Below are positions 9,013 through 58,000 of a stretch of DNA of 64,000 bases, one piece after another; the first letter of the stretch is position 1; each line of letters starts with the position of its first letter. The notes below the pieces were generated by a model. It made no database searches. It was not told the DNA's origin and saw nothing but the letters and a program-made list of their open reading frames with translations. The translations under genes and the position numbers were made by a program. The stretch is from contig OZ024929.1 in NCBI GenBank assembly GCA_964017235.1, forward strand, positions 115,367,793 through 115,431,792, written 5' to 3'. The DNA comes from Sabellastarte sp. h YS-2021 (lineage: Eukaryota > Annelida > Polychaeta > Sabellida > Sabellidae).

Positions 9013-9749
9013 AACTAGATTGGGCCAACTCGGCGCCAACATATCCCCAGACAGGTCATCACTCACGCCACAGGTTTTGATCGGAAATTTTTTAAAACAT
9101 AATTACCCATTATTAGATGAACTTCAGCACATCAATCTACTCTGTTTATATCTCCCCAAGGAAGATGGTGTATCCCCAGACGCCGAATACATAACTCAAA
9201 TTATATTTTCAATCTTCCTGCAATGATAACTCTAAACCTATTTTCAAAGTATTTAAATGATTGACGATTGAATGTCCATTCTAAAATAATAATCCCAAAA
9301 GAGCATATCTGTTTCTATATTTGTTGACAAATAAAATATTATTTTTAACTCAACTCATCATATTTTTCAATCTTCCTTCAAAGTATTTAAATGATTGATG
9401 ATTCAATGTCCATTCTAAAATTCATAATCCCAAAAGCGCATATCTGTTTCTATATTTGTTCACAAATAAAATATTATTTAAAACAAGAGGAGAGTGCCCG
9501 TGAACGGGCACTGTGTCAGCTGACTGAATGTTTTTGATTTGTGATGGTGATAATGAGAGGAAAGCATAATTATCAGGGAAAGGACTGTACAGAAATACAG
9601 TTGTTCGAAAGATATTCCGAAGCTGACAGAAGAAAAGGACAAAAAAGCTGTACCCTGCAAATGGTATTATGAAATAAAGTAACAAGGTAATTGTTTAAGT
9701 GTAAAAAGTAGGTTAAAAATATTTAAAGAAATACTATAAATGCAATATC

Positions 9750-10420
9750 CTCATTCGACCATGAAGAAGGGATCCAAAGGTCAAATCTGACCATACCAAA
9801 AGATTCCCAGCCAAAGAATTTAGGATGGTTTACCATCCCAAACCTCTCGGACCAATAATAAGTGAGTCATAGGCACTTTTTAAGTTTGGCTATCCTTGTT
9901 TGACCTTGACGGACGGGTCTAAGGTCAAATCCGACCACACAAAAAATTCCCAGCCCATGATTTCCTGTAGCTTGTTTACCATCCCAAACCTGTAGGACCA
10001 ATAATAAGCGAGTTATAAGCAATTGTAAGTTTGGCTATCCTCAATTGACCTTGAAGGAGGGGTCCCAGGTCAAATCTGACCACACCAAAAGAATCCCAGC
10101 CCATGATTTCCTATATGTTGGTTTACCATCCCAAACCTCCAAGACCAATAATACGCGAGTTATAAGCACTTTAAGTTTGACTATCTTCGTTTGACCTGGA
10201 AGGAGGGGTCTAAGGTGAAATCCGACCACACCAAAAGATTCCCAGCCCATGATTTTCTATAGGTTGGTTTTCATTCCAAACCTCTAGGACCAATAATAAG
10301 CGAGTTATAAGCACTTTTATGTTTGGCTATCCTCATTTGACCTTGAAGGAGGGTTCCAAGGTCAAATCGGACCATATTAACAGATTCCCAGCCCATGATT
10401 TCCTACAGGTTGGATACAAT
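9750..10420 (-). repeat. E-type satellite array inside C2 (about 4.5 units of ~147 bp)
   Basis: Units contain CCAATAATAAGCGAGTTATA, TTCCCAGCCCATGATTTCC and TTTGACCTTGAAGGAGGGG. These are the reverse complements of phrases in the eight-unit array in element E (36600-37790). Element C1 lacks this array, so C2 gained it or C1 lost it. Confidence 0.8.
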
Positions 10421-12760
10421 GATTTACTCAACAGTGAGAACCTGAAAGAAGCTATTGCTCAGCTATGCCATGACATAGAGGTCTGCAATTTCACTATGTT
10501 ATAGCTGACCAAAACGTCTGTGAATAACATATTTAACAAAATACTCTAAATGTAATAGTTTTAAAGTTACAACTGATTTACTCAAGAGTGAGAACCTCAA
10601 AGTAACTATTACTCAGCTATGCAATGAGCTACATGTCTGAATTTTTGTTCTGTTATAGCTGACCTAAAAGTAGGTGAACAACATATTTAAGCAAAATACT
10701 GTAAATGCAATAGTTTTCAAGTTACAACTGATTTACTCAATAGTGAGAACCTGAAAATAGCTATTGCTCCGCTATGCCATGAGCTATAGGTCTGTAATAT
10801 TATAGCTAACCCAAAAGCTAACCCAAAAGTAGGTGAACAATATATTTTAACAAAATACTCCAAATGCAATATTTTTCAAGTTACAGCCGATTTACTCAAC
10901 AGTCAGTGCCTGAGAATAGCTATTGCTCAGTTGTGCCATGACCTACAGGTCTGTAATTTCACTATGTTATAGCTGACCCAAAAGTAGCTGAATAACATAT
11001 TTGCACAAATTTCTGTAAAGGCAATAGTTTTCCAATTACAACTGATTTACTCAACAGTGAGAACTTCAAAGTAGCTATTACTCAGCTATGCAATGAGCCA
11101 CAGGTCTGGAACTTCACTATGTTATAGCTGACCCCAAAATAGGTGAATAACATATTGCAACAAAATACTCTAAATGCAATAGTTTCCAAGTTATAAGTGA
11201 TTTACTCAACAGTGATAACCTCAAAGTAGCTATTACTCAGCTATGCCATGAGCTACAGGTCTGAAATTTTACTATGTTATAGCTGACACAAAAGTAGCTG
11301 AATAACATATTTATACTAAATTCTCTAAATGCAATAGTTTTCAAATTATAAGTGATTTACTCAACATTGAGAACTTCAAAGTAGCTATTACTCAGCTATG
11401 CAATGAGTCACAGGTCTGGAACTTCACTATGTTATAGCTGACCCCAAAATAGGTGAATAACATATTGAAACAAAATACTCTAAATGCAATAATTTCCAAG
11501 TTATAAGCGATTTACTCAACAGTGATAACCTCAAAGTAGCTATTACTCAGCTATGCCATGAGCTACAGGTCTGAAATTTTACTATGTTATAGCTGACCCA
11601 AAAGTAGGTGAACAACATATTTAAGCAAAATAAGCAGTTGTTTTCAAGTAACAACTGATTTACTCAATAGTGATGACCTAAAAGTAGCTGTTACTCAGCT
11701 ATGCCATGAGCTACAGGTCTGAAATTTTACTATGTTATAGCTGACCCAAAAGTAGGTGAACAACATATTTAAGCAAAATAAGCAGTTGTTTTCAAGTAAC
11801 AACTGATTTACTCAATAGTGATGACCTAAAAGTAGCTGTTACTCAGCTATGCCATGAGCTACAGGTCTGAAATTTTACTATGTTATAGCTGACCCAAAAG
11901 TAGCTGAATAACATATTTAGATTAAATTCTCTAAATGCAATAGTTTTGCAATTACAACTGATTTACTCAATAGTGAGAACCTCAAAGTAGTTATTACTCA
12001 GCTATGCAATGAGCTACAGGTCTGAAATTTTACTATGTTATAGCTGACCCAAAGTAGGTGAACAACATATTTAAGCAAAATACTGTAAATGCAATAGTTT
12101 TGAGGTTACAACTGATTTACTCAATAGTGATGACCTAAAAGTAGCTATTACTCAGCTATGCCATGAGCTACAGGTCTGAAATTTTACTATGTTATAGCTG
12201 GCCCAAAAGTAGTTGAATAACATATTTATACGAAATTCTCTAAATGCAATAGGTTTTAAGTTACAAGTGATTTACTCAATAGTGAGAACTTCAAAGTAGC
12301 TATTACTCAGCTATGCAATGAGCCACAGATCTGAAACTTCACTATGTTATAGCTGATCCCAAAATAGGTGAATAACATATTGAAACAAAATACTGTAAAT
12401 GCAATAGTTTCCAAGTTATAAGCGATTTACTCAACAGTGATAACCTAAAAGTAGCTATTACTCAGCTATGCCATGAGCTACAGGTCTGAAATTTTACTAT
12501 GTTATAGCTGACCCAAAAGTAGCTGAATAACATATTTATACGAAATTCTCTAAATGCAATAGTTTTGAAGTTATAAGCAATTTACTCAACAGTGATAACC
12601 TAAAAGTAGCTATTACTCAGCTATGCCATGAGCTACAGGTCTAAAATTTTACTATGTTATAGCTGACCCAAAAGTAGCTGAATAACATATTTATACGAAA
12701 TTCTGTAAATGCAATAGTTTTTAAGTTACAAGTGATTTTACTCATGATGGAAGTTACTGA
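10420..12760. repeat. C-type satellite array (~155-bp units, about 15 copies)
   Basis: Unit phrases are GATTTACTCAACAGTGA, AAAGTAGCTATTACTCAGCT, ATGAGCTACAGGTCTGAAAT and ACTATGTTATAGCTGACCC. Some neighbouring units (for example near 11600-11900) are almost identical, pointing to recent local duplication. The same unit fills 4440-5880 in C1. Confidence 0.85.
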
Positions 12761-15700
12761 AAAGCCCAAAAGTAGCTATTACTCACTTAGCTATTGAGAC
12801 AGGCACCCAACTTACTCACCATATTGTAGCTATGAAAAAAGTAGCTGAATAACATATTTTAACAAAATGCTCTAAATGCAACACTTTTGAAGTTATAAAT
12901 GATTTTGTGCATGATTTCATGAATTTTAATGCATTAAAAATTATTAAAAAAATTTATTAAAAAAAAAGTAAGACAGATCCAGGTCTCATACTCACACAAG
13001 AGAATCTACCTCTGGCCTAGTACATATATGCAAGATATGAGAGAAATCCCTGCAATAGTCACTGAGAAAATTGTGATTAAGTGTTGAAATTTTCACACTT
13101 TTGGTGGGGGTACCCCCCTTGTAATGTCTCTAGCAAACAGACGAACAGACAGATTTGCATGCCTTGAACAATTTTTCATCCTCGATAGATAAGGTATCTT
13201 TTAAAAAAAACAGCACGTCTCTAGGCCTTGTAGTTTTGGAGAAGAAGTTGTTCACGCGGACGCGGACGCCCACGCCGCAGAGTGACGACATAATGTCAGC
13301 TGAGTGACAAGTCAGCTGACATAAAAAAATTGTTTATATTATTATTTTATTATATTATTTTTAGAATTTGCAAATTGTTTTCAGTTATTCATTTCCTCTG
13401 TACCTATATATGTGGTCCATATATATGCAACCTAAATATGTGACACAATCTCAGTTCTGACTCCCCTTTGTGTTATATGTAATGAAGCCCACCACCTCCC
13501 ACCCCCACCCCTCTCCCCTTCTCCACACCTCTCTCACTATTACACAAGATCTGCAACCCCATTGAGTTCTTTGTTTCTCATCTGATATCATTAAATACCA
13601 TTGTTTATTTAGTGTCACTCAATATAGCTGGAGGTCCCAGAGGTGGGTGGGGGGAATCCGGGTGGGGGATGTGGGTTGAGCATAAATGGTAAACAAACAA
13701 TCTATATAAAAGGGGTACTCAAATACAAAAAGAATTGAGAATTTTAAGTATGTGATTATCAACTGAAATGAGTTCATAACTGTAGGAGCTGTGCCAAAAT
13801 TAACTGAGGCAAGTTGAATAAAACTGGGCTAGTTGAGGGTTAAAAATCCCCTAGTTTTACTACATAAGGATATAATTTCATTAATATTGGGACTTAAAGC
13901 TCACTTAAAGTGTCCATTTTGTCTACTTGAATATGTTTAACCAGTTTCATTTTAAAAAGTGAAAAACTCAGCAAGCAGAGGTATAACACACAAAAATAAG
14001 TTCTTAAAAGACTAAGATAGCCATAACATTATTAATATTCAAAATTTAAATAGACAGGCATTTCCTTTTAAAAATTCAAAGATTTCAGCTCTATACCCCA
14101 CATCGTTTGACAGTTACTGGGCTTTAAAGTGGCATAATATCCATAAATTGGGTTTCTGTGGGCATTTTACAATTGTTAAAGAGACCTTAGCAATTAAACT
14201 ACAGATCTGAAACTTTTTGGGGGACATACATAACAAACAAAAATTATATATAATACAGTTTAAGACTTGTCACACTAAGCATTTCCAAATAACAGGGCAA
14301 AATACGGAAAAAATGTCAAAAAAGGCACTTGGGCGAGTGTCTATGGCCCTCATACACAGGTTAAATGTCTACTAAAAACCTTGATTTTCGGCATATGTAA
14401 AAAGGACATAATAATGCATTCCCAGATGGGATTTCAGCTCCATCAATCACATAGTTTAACAGTTACAGGGCTTAAAGGTGGTAAAAAGTCCAAATATTGG
14501 GTCATTGTGGGCCTTTTAGAGATCTCGATGTGGCTTTCAAATTAAAGCTTCAGACTTAAAATTTGTTACATACTAAGATTACACATAGAATATGTATCTA
14601 ATAAAGTTTGAAACTTCTCAGACTTACCATTTCCAAGTTACAGAGCAAAATATGTGAAAAATGTCTTAAAAGGGTCACTCAGGTGGGTGTTTAAGGTCCT
14701 CATACACAGGTTAAATGTCTACTTGAAGCCTTGATTTTTGGCACATGTAAAAAGAACATAATAATGTATTCCCAGATGAGATTTCAGCTCTATCAGTCAC
14801 ATAGTTTAACAGTCACAGGCCTTAAAATTGGCAAAAAGTCCAAATATTGGGTCTTTATGGGGCCTTCTAGAGACCTAAATGTAGCCTTCAAATTAAAGCT
14901 TCAGACTTAAAATTTGTCACATACTAAGATTACACATAGAATATGCATCTAATACAGTTTGAAACTTCTTAGACTTACCATTTCCAAGTTACAGGGAAAA
15001 ATATGTGAAAAATGTCTAAAAATGGTCACTCGGGTGGGGATTTATGGTCCTCATACACAGGTTAAATGTCTTCTTAAAGCCTTAATTTTTGGCATATATA
15101 AAAATAACATACTAATATCTTCTCAGATAGGATTTGAGCTCTATCAGTCACATAGTTTGACAGTCACAGGGCTTAAAAGTAGCAAAAAGTCCAAATATTG
15201 GGTCTTTGGGAGTCTTTTAGAGACCTCAATTTGACCTTCAAAATTAAAGCTTCAGACTTAAAATCTGTTACATACTAAGATTACACACAGAATATATATC
15301 TAATACAGTTTGAAACTTCTCAGACTTACCATTTCCAAGTTACAGGGAAAAAGATGTGAAAAATGTCTTATAAGGGTCACTCGGGTGGGTGTTTATGGTC
15401 CTGATACACAGGTTAACTGTCTATTAAAGGCCTAAATGTTGGGGCACATATAAGAAAACACATAGATATATTCCCAGATGATATTTAACTTAGATGAGAG
15501 ACATAGTTTGAAAGCTACAGTGCTTGAAAGTGGCAAAAAGTGCATAAATTGGGTCTCTGTGGGCACTTTTGAGACCTTAAGTCGACCCCTTTGGGTAAAC
15601 CTACAGCCCTAAAATTTTCTACAGACAAGGATTACATATCAAAGTTATACCTAGCGCAGTTTGAGACTCATCAGAATTATCACTTCCAAATTATAGGGCA

Positions 15701-16399
15701 AAATATGTGTAAAGTATAGCAAAAAATCCCTAAGTGGGGGTATTTATGGGCCTCAAACACAATTTTCTCCTCAACTTAAAGTCATAATTTTCGGCACATG
15801 TACTAAGAACATATTAATGTGTTGTCAGGTAAAATTTCAGCCAGCTGAGCATCATAGTTTGTGGCCTACAGGGCTCTAAGTGGCCAAAAGTGCAATTTCT
15901 GACCTTAAGGTGGCCATAAGTTCTTTTTTACTGGGAGTTTAAGGTCACCTTAAAATAGGGATCTTCCTTTGGGCACCCTTAACATGTGTACCAAGTTTGA
16001 AAAAAAAATATTAATTTGTTTTTGAGTTATCGCGTCCACAAGGAAATTTCTACGGCGGCGGCGGCGGCGGCGCGACGGACCTGAATCCAATATATCCCCG
16101 ACTTTCGTCTGGGGATATAATTATAAAAATAAGAAATATACTAATAAATACGCATTTATTACCTTTATTTTAGCATAATTCGTGGGGGTTTTTTTTTCAC
16201 AAATCCAGTACACTTTAGGTAAACAGGAAATCATCCGAAATTACATTTTGGTATATACAGTTGTATCCAAAAGTTTAGTAACTCCTGCTTCGGGCGAATT
16301 TCCGTTTTTCAGCCTTGACATTCACTTTTGTCTTGAAAGGGGTTTTCGTATTTTTGGATTGTCTTTGGCAGTGTTTTTGTGTCTTTTTGGTTGTTTAAA

Positions 16400-18840
16400 A
16401 TGGCAGAACAGTTACAAAACAAAGAAATTATTGACTATGATGGTCCTTGGCGCACTAATATTAGCAAAGTGTGGAAATATTTTGGATTTGTTACAGAAGG
16501 GGAAAAAATTAACAGGACACCAACAATATGCAAGATATGCAAAGTTGTCAAACCTTGTAAAGATGGCAATACATCAAATATGGCAGCACACCTGAATAAC
16601 TTTCATGGTGATATTTTCAATGCCCCCAAGGAAGGAATACCAAAGGTCCAGACAAATTGGACATCATTTTTGGGATCTAGCAAGATCTATCGAAAGGATG
16701 GAAAAATACATGAAGATTTGACTCAGTGCATGGCTGAATGGATTGTAAAGGATTTGGTACCATTGAGTACAGTAGAAAGTGAGGAATTTAGAAACTTCAT
16801 CAACAAATTGAATGCCCGGTACGAGGTACCTTGTAGGCAAACCATACGAAATGTAACAATTCCAAAAATGTATGCTGAAACCAAGATCAAGCTAATGCAG
16901 GACATTGAAAAGCACAAAGCTTTTGGGATCACCACAGACTGCTGGACTTCTGTAGCAAACCAAAGCTACATGACAGGTACATTAAAATAAGAATGAACAC
17001 AGTGACGTTTTATTTACTTTATTCCTTCTTGCCTCTGCTTCACTTTCAATACATTGCAATAAATAATACCATAGGTCATACATGACAAGTAGTTCATGGA
17101 GATAAAGCTGGTTAATGATTGATATAAATTATCAATTCTCTGCAGGTCATATCATCAATATTGCACACTATTCCAACCACTACGCTTTCTTTTGTTACAC
17201 TCACTTGATTCCATGTGCATGACCTATCAGTATCATGATAGCCAAGTAGGGGAAGAAAAACTGAACAGGACAGACTAGACCATCAGTATTGCACACTGTG
17301 CCAGCCACTAGGCTTTGTTTTTTTTAGTTACACTCACTTGATTCCATGTGGACGTCCTATCAGGATGGCTAAGTAGGGGGAGAAAAACTATTTTGAACCC
17401 ATTTTTTTTCTTTAAATTTTAGTTACCCTACACTTGGGAAGTGGTTTCTTCTGTTCTCCAAACACGTCTGGTAGTTGAGTCACATACAGCAGCCCATCTT
17501 TCTGAAATTTTCACTGTTAGTTTCCATGGATGGGGTCTCACAGATAAACACATTACAGTCAATACTGATAATGCCAAGAACAGTATAAATGCATGGAAAC
17601 TGATGGACGAAACCACTATTGGTTGCATAGGTCAGGCCTTAAATCTGGCAGCCAGAAAAGCTCTAGAGATAAACTCAGTTTCACAGGTTGTTGGCAGGGT
17701 AAAGCGCCTAGTGAGTAATTTCCATGACTCAACTCAAAGCTCCAATCTTCTGACGGCAAAGCAAGCCTTGCTTAAACTTCCCAAGCGAAAGCTAATACAA
17801 GATGTTGATACCCGCTGGAACTCAATATTTGACATGATACAATCTGTTTTAGAACAACAACTGCCAATCTCTGCTGTTTTAATGGAAGGTCCCTCAAAAT
17901 TGAAAGACTTGAGCCTCGAGTCAAAACAAATTGGCTTATTAGAGAGTTTGGTTGAAGTTTTGATGCCCCTTAAGGAAATAACCGTTCAACTTAGTGGAAG
18001 CCCCTATTGCACAATTTCCATCATTGCCCCAACTATGCATCAACTGATCCATAGGCATTATCAGAAAGATCCAAATGACACCAAGTTTGTGGCAGATGTC
18101 AAGAAAGCTATTTGCAAAGATTTAAGATCACGCTATCAAGAAGCAGATGTCAATCAGTTCATGTTGATCTCATCTGTGTGTGACACAAGATTTTGTAGTA
18201 TTAGCTTTATTGCTCCAGAAAGAAAGTGCCAGATTTACAATTAGTTTAAGAATGAAATGTGCAGATTGTCTGATGGATTGCAACCAGACTCTACTATTCC
18301 ATCATTGATTCATATCAAAAAGGAAATAATCAAGAAGGAAAATACAGGTGATGAATATCCAGTGATCAATGAATCTGATCTTGTAAGTAACTTACCCAGC
18401 ACCTCATGTCAAATGGTCGATGTAGAGATCTCCCAAACTCCCTCCTTGCCTGTCAGTAATTGCCAAGATGAGCCACTTAGGAAGAAGAAAGGGCAATGTT
18501 TGATCTTGGCGACATTATTGGTTCTGGAACTGAAGACCCTGAGGATGAAACTTTGGTAGTAAAGGCAGGGAAAGAGTTTGACAGGTACCTACATCACCCA
18601 ACTGATCCCAAAATGCTCAAAGATGAAAAGTTTGAGCCAATAAAATGGTGGAAAATTAACGATGGGGTGTATCCTCTGGTTTCCAATGTAGCCAGGAAAT
18701 ATCCTTGTGTTACTGCCACATCTACACCACCAGAAAGAATCTTCAGTGCAGCAGGAAATATATTAACCAAAAAGAGGGCCATGCTTGGACATGATCTACT
18801 TGACAAACTCATTTTCCTACATGTTAACTTTAAGAGATAA
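16400..18840 (+). pseudogene. Decayed hAT transposase with BED zinc finger (ZBED1-like)
   Basis: The ATG at 16400 opens MAEQLQNKEIIDYDGPWR. A BED-type finger follows: CKICK, then H..H in MAAHLNNFH. Next come the hAT catalytic-region block GITTDCWTS (ends ~16975), then from 17423 VTTDN-like HITVNTDNAK, CIGQALNLAA, KRLVSNFHDS and LIQDVDTRWNS. The C-terminal dimerisation block is PPERIFSAAGNILTKKR (to 18840). Breaks seen: a 447-bp gap at 16976-17422 with GT..AG ends that could be an intron but does not restore the expected reading; an in-frame TAG at 18242; and a one-base shift near 18495. No terminal inverted repeats were found. It could be an old transposon copy rather than a domesticated gene. 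Confidence 0.85.
17150..17375. repeat. ~125-bp direct duplication inside the hAT gap
   Basis: Two copies share ATTGCACACT, TTACACTCACTTGATTCCAT and AAGTAGGGG.AGAAAAAC. They lie within the segment separating the two halves of the transposase. Confidence 0.75.
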
Positions 18841-19015
18841 AGATGTAGTGAAAACCAAAGTGAACATTTTCAGAAACATGTGCCTAGATAAGTTGTTTTT
18901 TTTTTTGTTGTGTTTTTCCAATGGATCTAATTGACAACCTCATTTTCCTACATGTTAACTTTAAAAAATGTGAACATTTTCAGAAACATGTGCCTAGATA
19001 AGTTTTTTTTTCTTT
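18796..19015. repeat. Direct duplication at the transposase 3' end
   Basis: The end of the coding sequence plus early 3' sequence (CTCATTTTCCTACATGTTAA, then GAACATTTTCAGAAACATGT and a T-run) is repeated once, about 140 bp further on. Confidence 0.75.
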
Positions 19016-19154
19016 TTTTTCAATGGATAGAGGATTTATAGGCATTAACTATGTGCACCTGACACTGATGATGTTATCAAAACAGGTACACAAAAATTTG
19101 GTGTAAAAAAGTTTTTGGTGTAAACTTGTATAAAAGAGTAACTTCTGTGGATAT

Positions 19155-20583: not shown

Positions 20584-20762
20584 ATATTTATGTAGCAAGA
20601 ATATTAAACTGCATATTCTTTTGATATTCGTTTACCACAAAAGTCTCCGGTTCCCACATTTGCTCTCAATGCCGAGACTACTGTCACCCCATGTATAGGT
20701 AGCTCTGGTATTTTTGTGTCATTGGAGTTTTCATGGTTGTAGTGATTACTTCCGTTATTAAA

Positions 20763-21205: not shown

Positions 21206-22775
21206 AATGTTTACTACCACGAAAACCCATGGATCACCATACTCTCCTGCACACTCATTATCGCTCACAACATGATTTTAGGCGTGACAGTACGTACTAG
21301 AGCATATCAAGTTAGAAGTCGAGTTCCCAGTAAGGTTATATATAAAAACCAAGTTATGCATTTAGATCGCCGTGTCTATTTCAATACAATTTTCTTCTTT
21401 TTTCGTGCGTGTATGTGGGTAGACGGGAACCAGCCACCTTAACTATATTGCAGAGTAGGGTCGGCGGAAACCAGACTAGTATGTGGGGGGGGGATATCGT
21501 ACTCTATACCGAACAGTGTTTGCCGAATTATGACACATACCAAACATATTATAGAAACCGAGGATGTGCTTACAAACCCCTTAGTGGCCTTGTGAGTATC
21601 AGGTTAGGCTAATGATCCCTTACATCTAACCTTTGTGTCACTCCAGCCCCTTTAAAAAAAGTGTTTTATCGCAAACAAAAAATAAAAATAGCATTAATTA
21701 TGAAAAACTGCCTAAGCGACATTCAAAATTTCATGTCTGCAAACAAATTAAAACTCAATCCTGAGAAAACTGAGTTTATTCTGATAGGCTCCAAAAATAA
21801 CCGTAAACAACTCCTTCCTCACTTCCCGATCAATATTCTAGGCAATCAGGTCTCACCAGCACAAAGTGTTAGGAACCTCGGAGTGGTGTTCGACTCCAAT
21901 TTCTCATTCTCAGACCATGTGTCACAGGTCATAAAGTCCACCAGAGTTCATGTGAGAGACCTCTATAGAATTCATCCCCTTCTTGACCTTAACAAATCAG
22001 TTCTTTTAGCAAATGCTTTGGTGAGCAGCAGACAGGACTACTGCAATTCCTTATTCTTATCACTTACAGATTTTGAGTTAAGAAGATTGCAGTTAGTCCA
22101 AGACTCACTCTGCAGGGTTGTCACCCGGTCCTCGAAATACTCTCACATTACCCCTCAACTGAAAAAACTCCATTGGCTCCCTATAAAATATAGGATACAC
22201 TTCAAAATTGGTCTCATTACATACAAAATCTTCAAGCAGGGTCAACCAGTCTACCTAAGAGAATTAATTCATCCCTACACCTCTTCCAGGAATACAAGGC
22301 GAAGTACCCCTAAACTCAAGTTCCTTCACACCCCCACTTTCGACAATAAGGTTCATAAATCAGTCAAACTTTTCTCCAATTCTTTCAGTCACTATGCCCC
22401 GGTTCTTTGGAACTCCTTCCCCTTCCAAATAAGAAATAGCCCCTCTGTCGCATCTTTTAGGAAACACCTCAAAACCCACCTCTTTAATTCCAGTTTCCCA
22501 ACTTAGTTTCCTTCCCTCTTGGTCACACCCACAACTCCGGATTACTGACCTTGAACGCCCCTTGACTTTCCTTATGATAATGATTGTGTTAAGTAATCAC
22601 ACTGAGTTCCCCTTTGTGGGGAAGATATTGCGCCTGCAAAGCAGTAGATTAGATTAGAAAAACAGATTTATATATGGCAAATTACAAAGAAAAGAACATT
22701 AAATGTTATGTCATGAATAATATGTAAAAACAAAATACTTTCTAGATATATGGTGATCCATGGGGTTTTCGTGCT
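21206..22775. mobile_element. Inverted-repeat element interrupted by a LINE
   Basis: CACGAAAACCCATGGATCAC (21218 region) faces GTGATCCATGGGGTTTTCGT (22751 region), a ~24-bp inverted pair. The LINE 3' end at 21655-22657 lies between them. Exact ends and target duplication were not resolved. Confidence 0.5.
21655..22657 (+). pseudogene. 5'-truncated CR1/L2-type LINE, reverse transcriptase C-terminus
   Basis: The open frame at 21661-22506 (281 codons) encodes the thumb and C-terminal part of a CR1/L2-like reverse transcriptase. It has NKLKLNPEKTEFILIGS, VRNLGVVFDSNFSFSDHV, LVSSRQDYCNSLF, LHWLPIKYRIHFKI, PVLWNSFPFQIRNS and RKHLKTHLF. The catalytic palm is missing. A short 3' UTR follows (CCCTTTGTGGGGAAGATATT), ending in the repeat ATTAGATTAGA near 22645-22656, a usual CR1/L2 tail style. 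The intact frame suggests a fairly recent insertion. Confidence 0.88.
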
Positions 22776-22786
22776 ATTAAAAAAGT

Positions 22787-24000: not shown

Positions 24001-24017
24001 ATTACCTTTTCATGACA

Positions 24018-31000: not shown

Positions 31001-34000
31001 TCAATAAGACGTTAGAATCACTGGGTGACACTGGCAGAAATTCTTAAGTTTAAATATAATTACATATTGTTTTAGTTGCATTATGCATTGATTTTTTAAA
31101 CTCGGTTTTCTCAGTGTGGTGTACTATTAAGACTTTACGACAAATTAAGTAATTATTGCAGTGATTTATATTTTATTTCTTAGTTACAATTATTTGAGAA
31201 GGCATATATGGTCTAGTTGCATCTCAGTTCATCAGAATTTAAGTGAATCTAAATAATTAATTTCTTAAAGTTTGAAAATAAATTTTTCATATGAAAAAAA
31301 ATAATAGTAATATTGTGAGTAATAAAATTAGCTGTATTTTTTAGTTTTCAAATCATAGTATATACTGCACGTACTTCAGACACTTGGGGATGAAGAGGCC
31401 AGAAGAAAATATGACACGTTTGGCAAAACTAGTGCAGACATGGGACAAAACCAGCCGAGAGGACAGCCATTTCACTTTAAGTCTTTCTTTGGAGGGGGTG
31501 GATTCAGATTCCAGTTTGATGATAGTGGGGGAAATGATGAACTCATTGAGAAATACAATATTAACATCAGGTGAGCATAAATACACCCATATATATGTAA
31601 CCTAAATGCTTTAAGGTTATGATGACAGAAACTAAGATCAAATGATTTCATTAGAGAAGAGCAAGTTTTGTCAACAGATCTCAGTCCCCAGTGTTGTGAA
31701 TTAAGCCTTATTGGAAAAAGGCAGTCTCATTGGTGGTACTGACTCTGTAACCGTTAGGCGGATTCTTTTCAAATTTGGCAGGTTTAGGCAGTAGCCTTGG
31801 GGAATTTTTTTGAATATGCTGCAGTGACATTTCAACCAATCAGAGAGGTCACATGACCAAAAATGTCTTTTTTCGATGGGGAAGCTTGTCCGGATGATAA
31901 CTTGAAAGGAATTTTATCAATTCACCTGAAACTTGGCAAATACATTCATTCTATTAAAATCTGGAAATCATTAGATTTTGGCATTGATTGATCAAGAAAT
32001 GGCCGAGTAATTAATGATTAATTAATCATTACGAATTTTCCAAATAAGGAAAACACAAAAGTGCTTATATCTCGAAAACCGTGCTAGATAGAGCGATTTC
32101 GATGAAAAAATTGGCCCGCAGGGTGTCTCTGCAGAGTAGTTATCCCAATTTTGAAAAAATTTTTGTCTCGCCAAAAATGGCGGCCATTTTGAATTTTCGA
32201 ATTTTTCGCAAAAATTGCAAAACATAAAAATGCTTATATCTCGAAAACCCTGCAAGATAGAGCGATTTCGACGAAATTTTTGACCCACAGGGTATATCTG
32301 CAGAGTAGCCATGCCAATTTTCAAAAAAATTTAGTCTCGCCAAAAATGGCGGCCATTTTGAATTTTCGAATTTTTCGCAAAAATTGCAAAATATAAAAAT
32401 GCTTATATCTCGAAAACCCTGCTAGATAGAGCGATTTCTACGAAATTTTTGACCCGCAGGGTACCTCTGCAGAGTAGTTATCCCAATTTTGAAAAAATTT
32501 TTCTCTCGCCAAAAATGGCGGCCATTTTGAATTTTCGAATTTTTCGCAAAAATTGCAAAACATAAAAATGCTTATATCGCGAAAACTCTGCTAGATAGAG
32601 CGATTTCGACGAAATTTTTGACCCACAGGGTATCTCTGCAGAGTAGCCATGCCAATTTTCAAACAAAACATTTCTCGCAAAAAATGGCGGCCATTTTGAA
32701 TTTTCGAATTTTTCGCAAAATTGCAAAACACAAAAATGCTTTTTATATCTCGAAAACCCTGCTAGATAGAGCGATTTCGACGAAATTTTTGACCCACAGG
32801 GTATCTCTGCAGAGTAGCCATGCCAATTTTCAAAAAAATTTTATCTTGCCAAAAATGGCGGCCATTTTGAATTTTCGAATTTTTGCGCAAAAATTGCAAA
32901 ACACAAAAATGCTAATATTTCGAAAACCGTGTTACATAGAGCGATTTCGACGAAATTTTTTATCTTCAGGGTATCTCTGCAGAGCAGCTATCCCAAAGAG
33001 CTTTCACTTGGTGAAGTTTCAGACCCATAGCTAATTGCTCACCTACTCAAAAAGAGTAAATGCGAATTACCTCTAAAAGTATTGCAGATGGCCAATTTTT
33101 CTCAAATAACTCATTCACCTACTTTTGGAAGAGCTTTCACTTGGTGAAGTTTCAGACCCGTAGCTAATTACTCACCTACTCAAAATGAGTAAATGCTAAT
33201 TATCTCAAAAACTATTGCGGATACCCAATTTTTATCAAATGACTCATTCATGTACTTTTGGGAGAGCTTTCACATGGTGAAGTTTCAGACCCGTAGATGA
33301 TTACTCACCTACTCAAAATGAGTAAATGCGAATTATCTCTTAAAAGTATTGCAGATAGCCAATTTTTCTCAAATAACTCATTCACCTACTTTTGGAAGAG
33401 CTTTCACATGGTGAAGTTTCAGACCCGTAGATGATTACTCACCTACTCAAAATGAGTAAATGCGAATTATCTCTTAAAAGTATTGCAGATAGCCAATTTT
33501 TCTCAAATAACTCATTCACCTACTTTTGGAAGAGCTTTCACATGGTGAAGTTTCAGACCCATAGCTAATTACTCACCTACTCAAAATGAGTAAATGCGAA
33601 TTATCTCTAAAAGTATTGCAGATAGCCAATTTTTGTCAAATTAATCATTCACCTACTTTTGGGAGAGCTTTCACTCGGTGAAGTTTCAGACCCATAGCTA
33701 ATTACTCACCTACTCAAAATGAGTAAATGCGAATTATCTCTAAAAGTATTGCAGATAGCCAATTTTTCTCAAATAACTCATTCACCTACTTTTGGCAGAG
33801 CTTTCACTTGGTGAAGTTTCAGACCCATAGCTAATTATTCACCTACTCAAAATGAGTAAATGTGAATTATCTCTAAAAGTATTGCAGATAGCCATTTTTT
33901 CTCAAATAACTCATTCACCTACTTTTGGGAGAGCTTTCACTCTGTGAAGTTTCAGACCCATAGCTATTTATTCACCTACTCAAAATGAGTAAATGCTAAT

Positions 34001-37000
34001 TATCTGTAAAAGTATTGCAGATAGCCAATTTTTATCAAATACTCATTCATCTACTTGTGGGAGAGCTTTCACATGGTGAAGTTTCAGACCCATAGCTAAT
34101 TACTCACCTACTCAAAATGAGTAAATGCGAATTATCTCTAAAAGTATTGCAGATAGCCAATTTTTCTCAAATAACTCATTCACCTACTTTTGGGAGAGCT
34201 TTCACTTGGTGAAGTTTCAGACCCATAGATAATTATTCACCTACTCAAAATGAGTAAATGTAAATTATCTCTAAAAGTATTGCAGATAGCCAATTTTTCT
34301 CAAATAACTCATTCACCTACTTTTGGGAGAGCTTTCACTCTGTGAAGTTTCAGACCCATAGCTATTTATTCACCTACTCAAAATGAGTAAATGCTAATTA
34401 TCTGTAAAAGTATTGTGGATACCCAATTTTTATCAAATACTCATTCATCTACTTGTGGGAGAGCTTTCACATGGTGAAGTTTCAGACCCATAGCTAATTA
34501 CTCACCTACTCAAAATGAGTAAATGCGAATTATCTCTAAAAGTATTGCAGATAGCCAATTTTTCTCAAATAACTCATTCACCTACTTTTGGGAGAGCTTT
34601 CACTTGGTGAAGTTTCAGACCCATAGATAATTATTCACCTACTTAAAATGAGTAAATGTGAATTATCTCTTAATAGTATTGCAGATAGCCAATTTTTCTC
34701 AAATAACTCATTCACCTACTTTTGGAAGAGCTTTCATACACGAAAATGAAAAATTGTGAATATCTCGGAAAAGCTATTTCTTCTGCTTTAATGCTCGGCG
34801 GGAGATACACACTGCGGCAGTGGTCTTGACAAAAATTTTTGTCTCCCCAAAAATGGTGGCCATTTTGAATTTTCAAAGTTTTTGCAAAACACAAAAATGC
34901 TTATATCTCGAAAACCGTGCTATATGGAGCGAACTGAACAAAATTTTGGACCTGCTGGGTATCTCTGCATAGTAGCCATGCCAATTTTCAAAATATTTTT
35001 GTCTCGCCAAATATAGCGGACATTTTTAATTTTTTTATTTTTTGCAAAACACAAAAATGCTTATATCTTGAAAACCGTGCTAGATAGAGCAGACTGCGCT
35101 GACTTTGGTTGCCACAACAGTATAAGGCTAGAAACGAAGCATTTTCTTAATACTTTAGCACTCACCTTTATATCCTTTTCGGGACGCTTTGTTTTTGCTA
35201 TGCAAAAACATTATCTTTTTTTTTGCGAGCGATCCTCTAGTTATTTTTTGTGTCACATTAAATACAAGTATCTCATGTCTGTGGGAATTAAGTATAACAT
35301 TGTCAATTAATTGTATCCACCGGAGGCATCCGGTGATACTTTGGTTTAGCGTTCGCTACGCTGCCACCGCGTGTAGAGAGATTTTCAGTGTTAAAGCTCT
35401 AAGAGAAAAAATACATCAGCTAGGTTCACCAAATTTGCATGATATCTTCATTGGGGGGTAAGCTTCTCCGGGAATTAGGAAATTAGCCTCATTCTGAAAA
35501 ACAAGATGGCCGCCACGGGCATTTCTTTGAAAATAATCTACATTTTTCTACTGGCTGTTTCTCATAGGTAGAAGGTTGAATGTCTTCATAGGTGATATGT
35601 ATAACAGATATCAGGGTTGAGATGAAAAACCCGCCCAGGTATTACCCGCCTGGGAAAACCCGGGAAATCCCGGGCTGGGCAATACTCCAAAAGTGGGCAA
35701 TACTGGGCAATACTATTTTTTAACCCAAATCTGGGGAAAAACCAATGATGAACTTTATTTAAGCTTCATAATACTCTAAACATGTGCAAGGATTTATTAT
35801 AAGTAATATATAACATATAAATGACAGTACATGAATACAATATTTAAATGGAATGAAATATATCAGCACTGAATGAGTACATAAATACAATTGTACATAA
35901 CAACTTTGGCATTGGGGTCATTTGAGGATTAGAATAGCTTCTACTTATTTCTATCCACTCATTGCCAGTGAAGCCATACTGTTAGTGCAGTGTCTCAAAA
36001 CCTTATTACTGACAAGCCAGAGTTAAGCTGTCAAGCCAGAGTTTATACTACCTGATGATAGCCCTAGAATAGTGGGGTAAATAGTTTAGTTGCAATTATG
36101 AAAGGGACAAGTATAAATCCCTCTTTTTGGTATTATACTTGAAAGTGACACCAGTAGCAAACATGTTTGATTGTTTATATATTCTAATGTATACAGTTTT
36201 AATTCTGTCCAGTGTGTCCACTGATTTAAGTGAAACCAATTCATACTTTGCAGTGTGTATAAAAATAGCCAAAGAGATTACCCAGTATTGCCCAGTAATG
36301 GCCATTATTACCCAGTTAGGAGAAATTTTTATATGTGACACTTCTTAAAGTATTACCCAGTAAGAACAAGTTTTTAAGACGTGACAATATTATCAGATAA
36401 TTTAATAACACTAGTGCTTTCTATAGAGTAGTTAAAATCTGTCTTTTTGTGTAATAAACCTATTAAGTCCAGTATTACCCGGTATTGCCCAGTAACACCC
36501 GGGAAAACCCGGTTTTTCTCAACCCTGACAGATATATATGTCCTCTACAACCTTGCAGACATTTGACCTTGAAGCTGTTAATTCAAGGTCATCCACAGAG
36601 TGCCAAAGTAACCCACATAGCGGACTTTAAAAGTGCTTATATCTCCCTCATTATTGGTCCTAGAGGTTTGCAATGTGAAACCAACCTATAGGAAATCATG
36701 TGCTGCGAATCTTTTGATGTGGTCAGATTTGACCTTCGACCCCTCCTTCAAGGTCATACAAGGATAGCCAAAATTAAAAGTGCTTATAACTTACTTATTA
36801 TTGGTCCAAGAGGTTTGGGATGGTAAACCAACTTATATGAAATCATAGACTGGGAATCTTTTGGTGTGGTCGGTTTTGACCTTGAACCCCTCCTTCAAGG
36901 TCAAATGAGGATAGACAAACTTAAAAGTGCTTATAACTCACTTATTATTGGTCCTGGAGTTTTGGGATGGTAAACCAACCTATAGGAAATCATGGGCTGG

Positions 37001-40000
37001 GAATCTTCTGGTGTGGTCAGATTTGACCTTGGGCCCCTCCTTCAGGGTCAAACGAGGATAGCCAAACTTAAAAGTGCTTATAACTCACTTATTATTGGTC
37101 CTAGAGGTTTGGGATGGCAAAGCAACTAATAGGAAATCATGGGCTGGGAATCTTTTGATGTGGTCAGATTTGACCTTCGACCCCTCCTTCAAGGTCATAC
37201 GAGGATAGCCAAAGTTAAATGTGCTTACAACTCGCTTATTATTGGTCCAAGAGGTTTGGGATGGTAAACCAACCTATAGGAAATCATGAACTGGGAATCT
37301 TCTGGTGTGGTCAGGTTTGACCTTGGGCCCCTCGTTCAAGGTCAAATGAGGATAGCCAAAGTTAAAAGTGCTTATAACTCACTTATTATTGGTTCAAGAT
37401 GTTTGGGATGGTAAACCAACCTATAGGAAATCATGGGCTGGGAATCTTCTGGTGTGGTCGGATTTGACCTTGGGCCCCTCCTTCAGGGTCAAACGAGGAT
37501 AGCCAAACTTAAAAGAGCTTATAACTCGCTTATTATTGGTCCTAGAGGTTTGCAATGTGAAATCAACTCATAGGAAATCATGGACTGGGAATCTTTTGAT
37601 GTGGTCAGATTTAACCTTGGACCCCTCCTTCAAGGTCATGCGAGGATAGCCAAACTTAAAAGTGCTTATAACTTGCTTATTATTGGTCCTAGAGGTTTGC
37701 AATGTGAAACCACCTTATAGGAAATCATGGGCTGGGAATCTTCTGATGTCAGATTTGACCTTTGGCCTCTCCTTCAAGATCAAATAATGGTTCACTGCCT
37801 TTGGTGAGTTGTCTTTCCGGTGGATACAGATTTGCATCGGTTCTCCGATGCGTAGGTCTAGTTGTGAATAAACCTATGTTGTTGTTGTTTTTTTTTTGGT
37901 TTTTTCTTATCAAAGGTTGTACAATACCCCCAGAAATACAATAACTGGGTTTTATTAGAAACATCAATTATTTGACACCTGTTGCAAAAGTTTTACTGTT
38001 ATGAATCAGGTGTCCCATTTCCTGACCATCTGTTTTGTTTGCATAATCCTTTGTCTTGGTAAAGCTTTGCAATACTGCCAACATTTGGACATTGTAAATA
38101 TAATAGGAAAACTTCCCGAATGATATATACAGAAAAAATATATCACAAATGAAGGTAATAATATCATACGAGTGCGCAGCACGAGTATTATATTGTTAAT
38201 CTTCATGAGTGGTATATTTTTTCTGTATATGTCCAATGGGGGGATGTTTTACTTTTATTATCCACCATTTTGTACAATTTATGGGTTAAATAACATGAAT
38301 GTTTAATGAGAGAATGTGAAAAGGCTGTCAAAATGCACAGGCTATAGTGAATATGAAAAACTTCAATTTTTAACTTGCAATAGCGCCTTTATTTCTGCAT
38401 GGATTTTTGTGCAACAGACATGAACAGAAGTGCTGTAAATTGACATTTCTAATGATATATAATATATATTGATGTAGGTAACATAGTTTTCAAGATATTA
38501 GTGAAATAACGGAAGTTATTGACGCTAGTTTTCCATGGTACGGAAGTGCTGTTGTATACAAATAAAATATATCCCACTCCATATACCCCAGTATACGGGT
38601 CAAATATGTCACGCGGTGGATAATAAATTATTTTGCCACAATAGAGATCAATGTAACTGCTCTGTATTTCTTCATTGGTGTTAGTAATTAATTGTTTGTG
38701 TATGGGAGACCTTCAGGCTCCGGCAGCTCCGCATTTTGTTTTCCTTATAACTCTGTAACCGTTAGGCGGATTCTTTTCAAATTTGGCAGGTTTATGCAGT
38801 AGCCTTGGGGAATTTTTTTGAATATGCTGCAGTGACATTTCAACCAATCAGAGAGGTCACATGACCAAAAATGTCTTTTTTCGATGGGGAAGCTTGTCCG
38901 GATGATAACTTGAAAGGGTTTTTATCGATTCATCTGAAACTTGGCAAATACATTCATTCTATTAAAATCTGGAAATCATTAGATTTTGGCATTGATTGGT
39001 TAAGAAATGGCCGAGTAATTAATGATTAATTAATCATTATGAATTTTCCAAATAAGGAAAACACACAAATGCTTATAACTCGAAAACCGTGCTAGATAGA
39101 GCAATTTCGACAAAATTTTTGACCCACAGGGTATCTCTGCAGAGTAGCCATGCCAATTTTCAAAAAATTTTGACTCACCAAAAATGGCGGCCATTTTGAA
39201 TTTTCGAATTTTTCGCAAAAATTGCAAAACACAAAAATGCTAATATTTCGAAAACTGTGCTAGATGGCGAATTATCTCTTAAAAGTATTGCAGATAGCCA
39301 GTTTTTCTCAAATAATTCATTCGCCTACTTTTGGAAGAGCTTTCACATGGTGAAGTTTCAGACCCATAGCTAATTACTCACCTACTCAAAATGAGTAAAT
39401 GCGAATTATCTCTAAAAGTATTGGAGATACCCAAATTTTCTCAAATAACTCATTCATCTACTTTTGGGAGAGCTTTCACATGGTGAAGTTTCAGACCCGT
39501 AGATATTTACTCACCTACTCAAAATGAGTAAATGCGAATTATCTCATAAAAGTATTGCAGATAGCCAATTTTTCTCAAATAACTCATTCACCTACTTTTG
39601 GGAGAGCTTTCACTCTGTGAAGTTTCAGACCCATAGCTAATTACTCACCTACTCAAAATGAGTAAATGCGAATTATCTCTAAAAGTATTGCAGATAGCCA
39701 ATTTTTCTTTAGTAACTCATTCACCTACTTTTGGGAGAGCTTTCACTTGGTGAAGTTTCAGACCCATAACTAATTACTCACCTACTGAAAATGAGTAAAT
39801 GCAAATTATCTCTAAAAGTATTGCAGATAGCCAATTTTTCTCAAATAACTCATTCACCTACTTTTGGGAGAGCTTTCACTTGGTGAAGTTTCAGACCCAT
39901 AGCTAATTACTCACCTACTCAAAATGAGTAAATGCTAATTATCTGTAAAAGTATTGCGGATACCCAATTTTTATCAAATAACTCATTCATCTACTTGTGG

Positions 40001-52000: not shown

Positions 52001-55000
52001 CCAGATGTTTTGGTTTAAACTGAATCTGCCTTGTGGTTTAGTTTAGCTTGTGTTTTCATGTTAGTAAGGTGAGGGATGAATCTGACCTCAGCTTCAGTCC
52101 TACTGAAAATATACCAGATAAACGATTAAATGAATACAGAATATCTATCTAACCTGTCATTTAAGCAATACCCAGGAGCACATGTGTCACACATTTAGTT
52201 GTTTCATAAAATACCTGTGGCTGGTTTCAGGAAGCCTCCTTAAGACAAAGGTCACCTTAAATTCAAGGATTTCCTTGAATTTCTCCCTCCTTTAACAAAT
52301 CTCAGTTTCACAAAGCCTCCATCCTTAAAGGAGACCTTGAAAACTCCCTTGAATTTCAGGGAAGCTAAGGACCTACCTTAGATTTAAGGAAGTGTCATTC
52401 AAGGGGTATTTGCTCCCTCCTTAAGTTTTAAGGAAGCCCTTTGGAAAGGAGAGTTAAAGGAGGCTTTGTGAAATGGAGATTTTAAGTGGCCTTACCAAAG
52501 GAATAAAAATGACCTTCCTTTACTAAAGAGGGTCCTTTCCAAAAGGAGGCTTCGTGAAACCAGCCTCTGGGTCTAAAAAAATATTTTTTTCACAAAAAAG
52601 CCATATTTTTAAGCATTTTAACTGAAAGTAACACATTTTCACTTGTAAGATCATTTGGAAGATATGTTTAATAAGTTGGATTGTCTAAATTTATGTTTTC
52701 CCTACAGATAGATTAACTTACAGTTGAATATCATTCAGTAGAACTTTGCCACATGGGTTTCTGTTTTTAATTAAGATTTACTGTGTTGTCAGGAATTCAT
52801 GGTAAAGTTAAAACATTTCTATGCTGCTTTGTGATTTGTCATAATAGGGTTTAACTGCTGTTCAGAATCATGAAAAATATGTCTGTGACAGATGATAAAT
52901 TGTTTGAAGTTTTACAGTATACATTTCAAGTTTTGTTACTGAATGGCAAAACAATCACTTGCCCATTAAGTGCATGGGCTACTTTTTCCTTTACCGGTAC
53001 GAGATTTGGGCTGTAATATAATTAATATTTTTAGCGATTCCATCCTTTTATTTTTATTGTAATACACAGGAATACTATTAATGGGGGTTGGGGGCTTGCC
53101 TCCATTTATACATCTGTTAATTTAATTTCATATTTCCTTGACAATTTCCTGCAATTAGCAAATATGGCGGATCCCGTACCGGTAAAGTAAAATTGACCCA
53201 GTGCATGGTTTAGAGATTTTTTCTCAGTAGACTCTTACTTACTTGGTACATATTATCAGACTGTTGTAACTGATAGTGGTATTTACCCTATCCTTCACAA
53301 GAGGATATAGTGTAATGACAGGTGACCTGCTCCTTTCCCACCCCTGACCCTGTGGGTTCAAATCCTGACCACAAACATAAGTGGCAGAAGTTGACAACTA
53401 TTTTGTCAATGCCCGGTGGTTTATAGAGTATTATCTCAGCTGATCAGTGTGCATCTATTCTCACATCTCCCCACTCTGATATTATCTATACTGTGGGTTT
53501 AAAATAACATAAACCTTAAACCAATCTGTCTGTAAGTTGTTAGGGTAACACTATTTTACACGACCTTGGCTTTTAAAGTAATTAAGTTTTTATCTTTTTA
53601 TCAAATGGTTTGTTTTTCAGAGTCTCCTGTATAGAATTATTCTGAGATTGTCAGAGTGGTGTGACCAAGCTTACGAGACAATCAATAGGTAACTAGCAGT
53701 TGTTACTTGTTGGGTATCTGTATTGTGAGGACTGACTAGAATCCGGGTTATCAGGTTTTAGTATGAACCAAATGGAATTACTTACCAGTGAAGTAAATAT
53801 GGTGACAACAGAAAACTGTTAAAAGTGTAAATATTTGTGAATAATGGGAAAAGTACGTTGAAAAAGTAAACATTAGGTGGAAAAAAATTGGTTTGTTTTT
53901 TTGCACTTGATTTAAATATGGAGACCTTTCATAGTCCTAAGAGACCCCATAAAAATTTCATCTAGATAATAACATTTTTTTTGTTAATTTTACAGTGATG
54001 AATTTTATCAGAGACATTGTGCATTTAAGAGCAGGAAATATTAGACTTGAGTGTGTAAATTGTGTTTGTAAAATTTGATCATTATACAGATATAAAAAAT
54101 TGCAACATTTTTTTTTTTATTTTTTTTTTTTTTATTTTTTTTTTTTTATTTGCACATTATATGTTGTACATTACATGTCTACATTATTGTATTTAAAGTA
54201 AATCATAGAGAACTAAAATTGCAACATTTGCTTCAGTAAGGATTAACATGGGGAGTCATACTTTTTAACACGAGGAAATTGTGTTCTAAAATTTTTATAA
54301 TTGGATATATAGAATCTCTTAAACTTCAATATTTTGACAAGTAAAGCTTTTGCTTTGTTTCAACATGGATAAACTTTTATAGAAGAGATATTTTCCTTTG
54401 ATCCCAAGATAAATTTTAATTGATATGAGCAAGTCAGTTTGTGTTTGAAAATCTGAAGATTTAAAAAGGCGAATTTTTAAAGTTATGCATTTTAGATATA
54501 CATGATTTTTAAAGTTATGCATTTTAGATATACACAATTTTTAAAGTTATGCATTTTAGATATACACGATTTTGCTTGGTTTTAGCATGGATGAGATTAC
54601 AGTGATTACGGTGGTGAGCACCTCAGTGTGTCTGCTGCTGGTCTTCTGTCTCTTCAAATCAGTGGTAGATGAACCTAGATCTCAGCAGGGCAACAGGAGG
54701 GGGCAGAGGCAGGCCAGACAAAATGACTGGGTCAGTGACAGGATGTCACAGCAACCTGATAGGTATGGCATACTTAGTACAGTACTGATTATATTATTGT
54801 TCTGAAAAATGGCCATAGCAGTAATTTAAACAAGATGTAAAGCAAACTTGCAATATACATATTGTGCTAATTAGGGAAGGATGTTAAATTGTTGATTGGA
54901 ATCCTAGGTTAAGTAATGATGTTGATTCTGAATATACTATATTGTTATCGAAAGAGGCTTCCGAGTTTTTGGACAAATTTGGTCTGCTACCCGAAGTCCT

Positions 55001-58000
55001 GACATTTTGTATGTGCTGAATTTAGTCACTTCCTGTAAATATGATGACAAACATAAACAGAAAATTGTGACCGATTCGTCATTTTGATAGAAACATACTG
55101 TATGAAGTAATTTTAAGGCTTTTAGATATATATTTATAGAGAGATAAGATGTAGGATGAATTATTTGACACTTAAAAGAATCAGTGACTACCCAAGGAAT
55201 TGTCCTCCCAATTAATTGAAGTAAACTTATACAGAGGAAGATATATTAGTAATGCCAAAAATAGTGCTTGATTCCTGCTCTAATGCTAACATTTGTAATA
55301 AAGGACTTCTGCACCTCATGCCACCTCTCTTCTTAAACTCAGTGGCCCGTAACTGTTTATATTTGATAACGCAGCTTTACAAAAGATAGTTTTTACCTTT
55401 AAGAGTTCTACACATGATATGAAATCCTACTTGGCGGTGCAATATCTCCTTGATATAGGAATCAAAATGCTATTTTACGTATCGCTACTACAAAAAACCT
55501 ACCTGTACACCAAAGTATATACACCTTTGTCTTAATTATCACCTGGCATTCTCTGTGGTGCTTCACCTGTTTCCTATCCCTGGATACTGAAATTGGTTAC
55601 TGTTTTTGGCGCCTTAGAGTCCTCTTTGTAAAGGTGAGATTAAGTGCTATAAAAAAATGTCCATAGCCTAGGCTATTGTGGCTTGCTTTCTCCTAACTAG
55701 AAGACGGTAGCTTATGTCAGTTATTTGATTGCATTGAACTAGTCATCTATCTTATTGTCATGTGCAACTTCGAGATTTTAGACAGCTTTGTCTATTTTTC
55801 TCACATATGAGGATTCTTGGCTAGTGCTCTTGTTAGTAGTCACTTGGACTACTGCAATTAACTTTTCTGGAGTCTTTCCATATCCAGTCCACTCAAGCTG
55901 CAATGTAGTCAAAAGAATGCTGCCAGAAGTGTGTCACAAGATGACATACAAGAAAAATTCCTGTTCTCAATAAATTGCATTGCATACCTATTGAATATCA
56001 CTGTGTTACAAACTGCTTCGTTTCTGTACAGGTTTCTTCAGAACGGTTATCCTAAGCATTTTGATGTATATCTTTCTCCTTATTTTAGTCTATTCAATAC
56101 TAGGCAGTGTAGAGGAGAGGGTAATCTTCTTTTGGTTCCACAATTTGTTCATCCTTTCATAAATCAGTAATATAATTAAGCATCCCTGAAAGGGCGCTTA
56201 TTTGTTTTCGCCTCAGTTTCCTTGCCACCGCCACCGCCGCCGCCGCATTATGGTCTCCCTTGAATATCTCCCTTATTATTAGAAGGTTTCAAACCATATT
56301 TGGCAGTTATATACATTAGGCGTAGGAATATTTTTCTACATGCTTAAATTTGACCTTTGACCTTTATGAAGGTCACATGATCAAAAACAATTTTTTGAAG
56401 TACACCCCCCGTCATCGCAGTTCAGGAAAAACTACTTGCTACACAGCCTTATAATTTGACACACCTGTTCATACTATTGAAAGTGCGAGCTGATTAGATT
56501 TTGGGAGCAATCCCTTGAAAAATGTCTCATTTATGAGTGATTTTCTGACACCTTCCAATCTGAAAGCCTTAAATTTAGGTCAACCCCCCCTATTATCTTC
56601 TTAAGTATTGCATTTAGAGCCATAAAATGTACTGGGAGGTCATAGGAAACCATATGTGGAGAGTCTAAATAGCCGGTCAGTTTTACCCCACGGCCTCCCC
56701 TTATGGGTCAAACTGGGGTCATAAAATAGCTGATTTTGAGTTTTTCCCTTATATCTCCTTTATTGTTGCTTTTATACCTTCAGAATGTATTAACAGGTAT
56801 TGGGAAAGCATATGTGGAGAGTCTAAATAGCCGGTCGGTTTCACCCCCCGACCCCCCCTTATGGGCCAAACTGGGGTCATAAATAGCTGCTTTGGAGTTT
56901 TTGCCTTATATCTCCTTTATCGTTGCTTTTATAGCTTCAGAATGTATTAAGAGGTAGTAGGAAAGCATATGTGGAGAAGCTAAATAGCCAGTCAGTTTTA
57001 TCCCCCGACCCCCCCTTATGGGTCAAACTGGGGTCATAAAATAGTTGCTTTGGAGTTTTGCCTTATATCTCCTTTATTGTTGCTTTTATAGCTTCAGAAT
57101 GTATTAAGAGGTATTGGGAAAGCATATGTGGAGAGTCTAAATAGCCAGTCAGTTTTACCCCCCGACCCCCCCTTATGGGCCAAACTGGGGTCATAAATAG
57201 CTGCTTTGGAGTTTTTGCCTTATATCTCCTTTATCGTTGCTTTTATAGCTTCAGAATGTATTAAGAGGTAGTAGGAAAGCATATGTGGAGAATCTAAATA
57301 GCCAGTCAGTTTTATCCCCCGACCCCCCCTTATGGGTCAAACTGGGGTCATAAAATAGTTGCTTTAGAGTTTTGCCTTATATCTCCTTTATTGTTGCTTT
57401 TATACCTTCAGAATGTATTAAGAGGTATTGGGAAAGCATATGTGGAGAGTCTAAATAGCCGGTCAGTTTTACCCCCCCCGACCCCCCCTTATGGGCCAAA
57501 CTGGGGTCATAAATAGCTGATTTTGAGTTTTTGCCTTATATCTCCTTTACCGTTGCTTTTATAGCTTCAGAATGAATTAAGAGGTATTGGGAAAGCATAC
57601 GGCGCAGCTTTGTGCATTCTTAGCTTTACAGCATGCTTATTAAAACCACAAAGCATTTTAAACTTTCAGGGATGCTTCGCTTTTGTTAGCAAAAGCATTC
57701 CTCTAGTTTAGTTTCAGTTTAACTTTTGATACACCTACAGTTTGGAATGAGTTGCTTGGTGAGATTTCTGCTCCTCTTTTGTTGCCTCCTTCATAGAGAA
57801 ACTTAAGTCTTGTTTGCTTCTTAAAATATATCCCCCAATAGCCTCTATGGGAAACCCTCTATGAATTCTGTGTCTTTGTCATCCTGACATTTTTTCTTAT
57901 ATATTAAGCACTATAAAAGTTGTTTAAAATTAGAATTAGTTCATCCTTACAACTACCTGTTATAACATGATTTGACTCTTGGCCCTCACCTTAAAGTGAG

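Follow-up and report, generated by a model that had tools for sequence, protein, structure and literature searches.

The window analysed here is a 64-kb stretch of DNA (C3:115367793-115431792) from an assembly of 1.786 Gb in 647 contigs. Bodies built around tandem arrays lie along it; the arrays were detected with Tandem Repeats Finder (TRF), and the ends of the bodies were found by motif and delimited by script. The refined coordinates exclude the flanking TTs, which are present on both sides of five delimited copies (A twice, C2, E and F). Below, a caret marks a boundary or an insertion point, and "HINE-type" denotes likeness to the non-autonomous Helentron-type elements (HINEs) discussed later.

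9015..16118, minus strand: A copy 1, HINE-type, 351-bp satellite; split by C2, 3,265 nt without C2
9015..9052, minus strand: 3' end of A copy 1, with subterminal inverse motif, hairpin and CAATCTAG^TT
9484..13322, minus strand: C2, HINE-type, 155-bp and 146-bp arrays; nested in A copy 1
9484..9522, minus strand: 3' end of C2, with motif CAGCTGACACA, GTGCCCG hairpin and CTCCTCTTG^TT
13293..13322, minus strand: 5' end of C2, with ATGTCAGCTGAC inside the 5' terminal hairpin
16092..16118, minus strand: 5' end of A copy 1, with ATATCCCCAGAC inside the 5' terminal hairpin
31701..35240, plus strand: B1, 169-bp and 133-bp arrays; 3' boundary at 35240 firm, 5' boundary a candidate placed by eye
35313..37861, plus strand: E, HINE-type, 147-bp satellite related to the 146-bp array of C2
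45235..48522, plus strand: A copy 2, HINE-type, 351-bp satellite; empty site for C2
56178..57706, plus strand: F, HINE-type, 157-bp satellite, 15-nt motif AAGCATCCCTGAAAG

Other features share the window with these bodies. Pieces of a hAT-type transposase lie at 16337-18840 (plus strand), with a BED zinc finger (PF02892) and a hAT dimerisation region (PF05699) in separate frames, and reverse-transcriptase fragments (PF00078) were seen at 3218-3676 (minus strand) and 21616-22506 (plus strand), the second below the Pfam cut-off. An exon-like peptide picked by eye near 31.5 kb had no Pfam match. At 58552-60203 (plus strand), a GGGC microsatellite and then eleven 146-bp units follow TTTTCACCCATGGTGTCCGG; this stretch may be one more element of the HINE kind.

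The five 3' ends (A, C2, E, F and B1) were located where an initial annotation of this DNA had placed them. A motif of 12-15 nt, which differs from family to family, opens A, E and F and, set 1 nt in from the 5' terminus, occupies nt 2-13 of C2. Its inverse lies 26-34 nt from the 3' end of A, C2, E and F and is followed by the 3' hairpin and TCT[A/T]G^TT; a palindrome after the 3' motif is present in all four, and a stem in B1 was recognized by inspection. The 5' motif forms one arm of a hairpin in A, C2, E and F; folded with the following bases, using RNA energy parameters, this hairpin is strong in A, C2 and E (-16 to -19 kcal/mol) and weak in F (-7.1 kcal/mol). In C2, the inverse motif at the 5' end sits in an 11-bp hairpin. 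The initial annotation had described the matching 5' motif in A, E and F, which is correct, but had limited it to those three; the C2 motif was missing from its account, as were the 5' hairpins of A, C2, E and F. For B1, exact searches with three words taken from the inverse motif hit only the B1 3' end itself.

The combination of motif and end is unusual, unlike the bare word CTCTAGTT, which was rejected as a signal since it was found 3 times in the window against 2.12 expected. Among 2,000 random 70-mers from the window, none equalled the true 3' end of F in matching the 5' motif, and 7, 3 and 2 did so for A, C2 and E, respectively, in a control that can include real ends. A strict de novo scan that required perfect stems recovered E and C2 but neither A nor F; as controls, both strands of the reversed window gave 0 hits, and 10 Markov shuffles together gave 2.

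The genome-wide search for these ends that the initial annotation had proposed returned between 3,351 and 12,186 matches per family. The 3' end of C2 was matched 12,186 times with up to 1 mismatch; with up to 3 mismatches, there were 11,055 matches for B1, 8,717 for A, 4,391 for E and 3,351 for F, and the reversed pattern gave 0 in every case. We fetched 105 copies of 3' ends (30 C2, 30 A, 20 E, 10 F, 9 B1 and 6 of a further family, G), all of them exact matches to the query and hence biased to well-kept ends. TCT[A/T]G^TT is present in 101 of these 105 exact matches (C2, 29/30; A, 29/30; E, 18/20; F, 10/10; B1, 9/9; G, 6/6) and absent from four (L018, L075, L088 and L094). The right flanks, compared for C2, A, E, F and B1, vary among copies, except for one common to L061 and L062. 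The 5' end of A has 10,752 matches in the genome and is preceded by TT in all 20 fetched copies. Among 100 A 3' ends listed, 92 have a listed same-strand A 5' end within 20 kb upstream, and 56 have one at a distance of 3.0 to 3.4 kb, compared with 2 in the wrong-strand control. Helitrons make up 8.7 to 12.6% of oyster genomes, according to the part of the source available (PMC11136912), so the abundance found here is, by itself, not surprising.

Filled and empty sites could be aligned for two insertions. Inside the window, A copy 1 holds C2 at a point where C2 is missing from A copy 2; the filled site has 7 and 4 Ts flanking the insert, and the empty site has 9 uninterrupted Ts. Elsewhere in the genome, an A element interrupts the Rep gene of L034 (GTTTATT, then A, then TTTTGGATAG), and the Rep gene of L037 is uninterrupted at the empty site GTTTATTTTGGATAG. 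In both pairs, the insertion is clean: the filled site has two more Ts than the empty one, and a long duplication is absent; A and C2 were thus inserted as single events. The gain of two Ts fits equally the entry of putative T-ended elements into T^T and a TT duplication, and a similar ambiguity over border Ts has been described for Helentrons (PMC4067079, available text). In L034, a noncoding carrier disrupts a possible helper gene, that of a Helentron Rep.

The genome also holds coding elements of the kind expected to move such carriers. Rep (PF14214) is matched in at least 24 places, and several diverged Rep lineages are present. L034, L036, L037 and L039 belong to one family, with about 99% identity. 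L037 and L125 have frames with matches to Helitron_like_N and PIF1 and, C-terminally, to Exo_endo_phos, the last at 23.6 bits, just below the Pfam cut-off of 24.5; an endonuclease fused to the Rep-helicase protein (RepHel) is the mark of Helentrons (PMC4067079, available text). Upstream of Rep, the L037-family Helentron has a match to a Ulp1-like peptidase (PF02902; L128:3057-4100), and a 63/126-bp coding tandem repeat lies between this match and the Rep domain (L128:3057-4100, L037:1-450). Its 3' end is CCTCTTG^TT: two compared copies diverge at the base after CCCTCTTG^TT, a point that their BLAST alignment overruns by six bases. For another Helentron (L032/L038), L136 contains a PIF1 helicase frame with a reverse-transcriptase frame after it.

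The initial annotation had also proposed a search for an autonomous Rep/helicase element with the same ends. For A, C2, E, F and B1, no such end of a coding element was found within 1.5 kb of the 24 Rep matches, a weak test because most ends lie outside these stretches. The clear A and C2 matches near Rep proved to be insertions, one of A in L034 and one of C2 at L051; isolated resemblances to F or to the core word in the 24 stretches were read as chance. For family G, the sixth family, it is the 3' end that is shared with a coding element. The 38-nt 3' end of the L037-family Helentron has 2,585 matches in the genome (control, 0), compared with the at least 24 places that match Rep. Three of the six fetched G copies (L130, L131 and L133) are identical to the Helentron 3' end over 160 to 161 nt, TT included, and have a motif at 187-bp spacing directly before the identical stretch, with two units seen; TRF, run on L130, L133 and L135, gave only 10- to 16-bp units and no 187-bp array in these stretches of just 458 nt. 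The other copies share 130 identical nt (L135), 160 nt at 99.4% (L134, immediately preceded by a C2 3' end) and 64 nt (L132, with an A 3' end upstream). As far as these sequences indicate, the coding Helentron and family G are probably linked, and it is the 3' end that supports this.

We read L135 as showing a candidate G 5' end, TT^AGGCGGGTTGCG..., the inverse of 3' CGCAACCCGCCT; the inverted motif, as judged by eye from L135 and the 3' end of L125, is 12 nt long, and the predicted 3' fold is imperfect and overlaps the motif. This 28-nt 5' end has 4,547 matches in the genome (control, 0). Among 100 G 5' ends listed, all on C1, there are 21 same-strand neighbour pairs within 1.5 kb and 0 on opposite strands; of 28 G 3' ends listed in the same C1 range, 25 are preceded by a 5' end at no more than 8 kb, and 1 has a 5' end on the wrong side.

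Taken together, the data make it very probable that A, C2, E and F, and B1 as judged by its 3' end, are non-autonomous Helentron-type rolling-circle transposons (HINEs) with satellite arrays as cargo. The Helitron2/Helentron design, already proposed in the initial annotation, is indicated by the asymmetric inverted motifs, the two hairpins, the TT target and the lack of a long target duplication, and by a Rep-helicase-endonuclease element of this genome whose 3' end, TCTTG^TT, recurs at thousands of sites. The data thus support the class of machinery. A canonical Helitron (Helitron1, with 5'-TC, CTRR-3', an A^T target and no 5' hairpin) does not agree with the TT target and the 5' hairpins; CTAG alone would fit CTRR. 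By the mechanism proposed here, the Rep-helicase-endonuclease of autonomous Helentrons would nick the 5' end beside TT, and one strand would be copied by rolling-circle replication up to the 3' signal; there, pairing between the inverse motif and the 5' motif could undo the 5' hairpin, as in the model proposed for Helitron2 (PMC3627910, in the text available). The copied strand would then be joined into another TT. Read-through past the 3' end would give head-to-tail 5'-5'-3' structures such as those of family G, for which recombination is another possible source; whole Helitrons in tandem, with inner copies truncated at the 3' end, are mentioned in the accessible text of the oyster study (PMC7492417).

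The initial annotation had further suggested that one replication-type machinery moves many different carriers. A single machine for all of them is not supported: the only coding Helentron followed to its 3' end matches the sixth family, G, rather than A, C2, E, F or B1, and the motifs vary from family to family. It is nevertheless worth considering that one Helentron RepHel moves all families in trans through a core (3' hairpin plus TCT[A/T]G^TT) and ignores the family motif: the core word is common to all six families, CCTCTTG^TT terminates both C2 and the L037 Helentron, and related satellites lie behind different ends in C2 and E. We consider this unlikely, however, as the motif is family specific and conserved in the fetched copies (which were picked by exact match to it), the Rep lineages are several and diverged, and G copies have 64 to 161 nt of Helentron 3' sequence, more than the core. 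It is similarly doubtful that a single enzyme reading a minimal 3' code (that hairpin and TCT[A/T]G^TT) mobilises tens of thousands of satellite carriers whose ends are otherwise unrelated, with arrays and end modules freely exchanged. Given the several diverged Rep lineages in the genome, a separate cognate Helentron for each family is no less likely than a shared machine.

Two explanations dispense with rolling-circle transposition altogether. Satellites could spread by unequal exchange or circular DNA, with the common ends as coincidental flanks, and the array units of 133 to 351 bp have lengths that are usual for satellites; this is hardly credible here, since fetched copies with differing flanks are alike only up to the ends, the 5' and 3' ends of A pair at a preferred distance, and the empty sites of A and C2 contradict it for both. 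DNA transposons with terminal inverted repeats, a cut-and-paste transposase and a 2-bp TT target duplication would account for the exactly two Ts that separate filled from empty sites in both pairs. This, too, is very improbable: inverted repeats would be expected at both extreme ends, but the motif is terminal at the 5' end and 26 to 34 nt inside at the 3' end, where there is a separate hairpin; the enzyme gene with a common end encodes a Rep-helicase-endonuclease; and variable numbers of Ts are described at Helentron borders (PMC4067079, available text).

On the reading as Helentron-type HINEs, the cargo deserves comment. The initial annotation had called the satellites unrelated, which is too strong: the arrays of C2 and E reach 86% identity in the same orientation, and B1 and C2 show a distant likeness of 63 to 78%. 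Since the 146/147-bp satellites of C2 and E are related and their ends are not, it appears, to judge from these alignments, that satellite modules pass from one end type to another. At 1.79 Gb, the genome illustrates probable rolling-circle transposons as carriers of dispersed satellite arrays.

The closest known system is Cg_HINE of the Pacific oyster (Vojvoda Zeljko et al. 2020, PMC7492417), and the comparisons that follow refer to the text of each source that was available. As here, Cg_HINE elements have a 5' subTIR with a complementary inverted repeat, central tandem repeats (consensus, 138 to 181 bp), a 3' subTIR followed by a palindrome and a preference for TT, and they form several families with different or related repeats that insert into other repeats. 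The satellite-carrying HINE design is thus already known from the oyster. The worm elements differ in belonging to another genome, in including a 351-bp unit and in showing a gain of two Ts in two filled/empty pairs, whereas no sign of target duplication is described for Cg_HINE. Helentrons and HINEs/DINE-1 (Thomas et al. 2014, PMC4067079) likewise combine a RepHel-endonuclease fusion, subTIRs, a 3' palindrome, TT preference, border Ts and more non-autonomous than coding copies; those are other species and families, with OTU proteases and RPA in place of the Ulp1-like PF02902 match found here upstream of Rep. Helitron2 (PMC3627910, 2013) has a 5' ATIR in a 5' hairpin and a 3' ATIR just before the 3' hairpin, as here, but its RepHel lacks the endonuclease domain, as stated in PMC4067079. 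PMC5148889 and PMC7992393 were also consulted.

Coding partners of HINEs have been reported in other animals (PMC4067079). In the oyster, 10 autonomous elements were described, none of which could be related to Cg_HINE, and the authors left open which coding Helentron belongs to which satellite carrier (PMC7492417, available text). For this question, the worm genome supplies a specific pairing: a RepHel Helentron, and the 2,585 sites at which its 3' end recurs; should the single-enzyme reading be true, family G would be the direct link between coding Helentron and satellite carriers that was sought in vain in the oyster. The present work adds a filled/empty pair inside one window, genome-wide counts of ends and a link, through the 3' end, of family G to a coding Helentron; it is this link that, within a non-exhaustive literature search, goes beyond the available text of the oyster paper.
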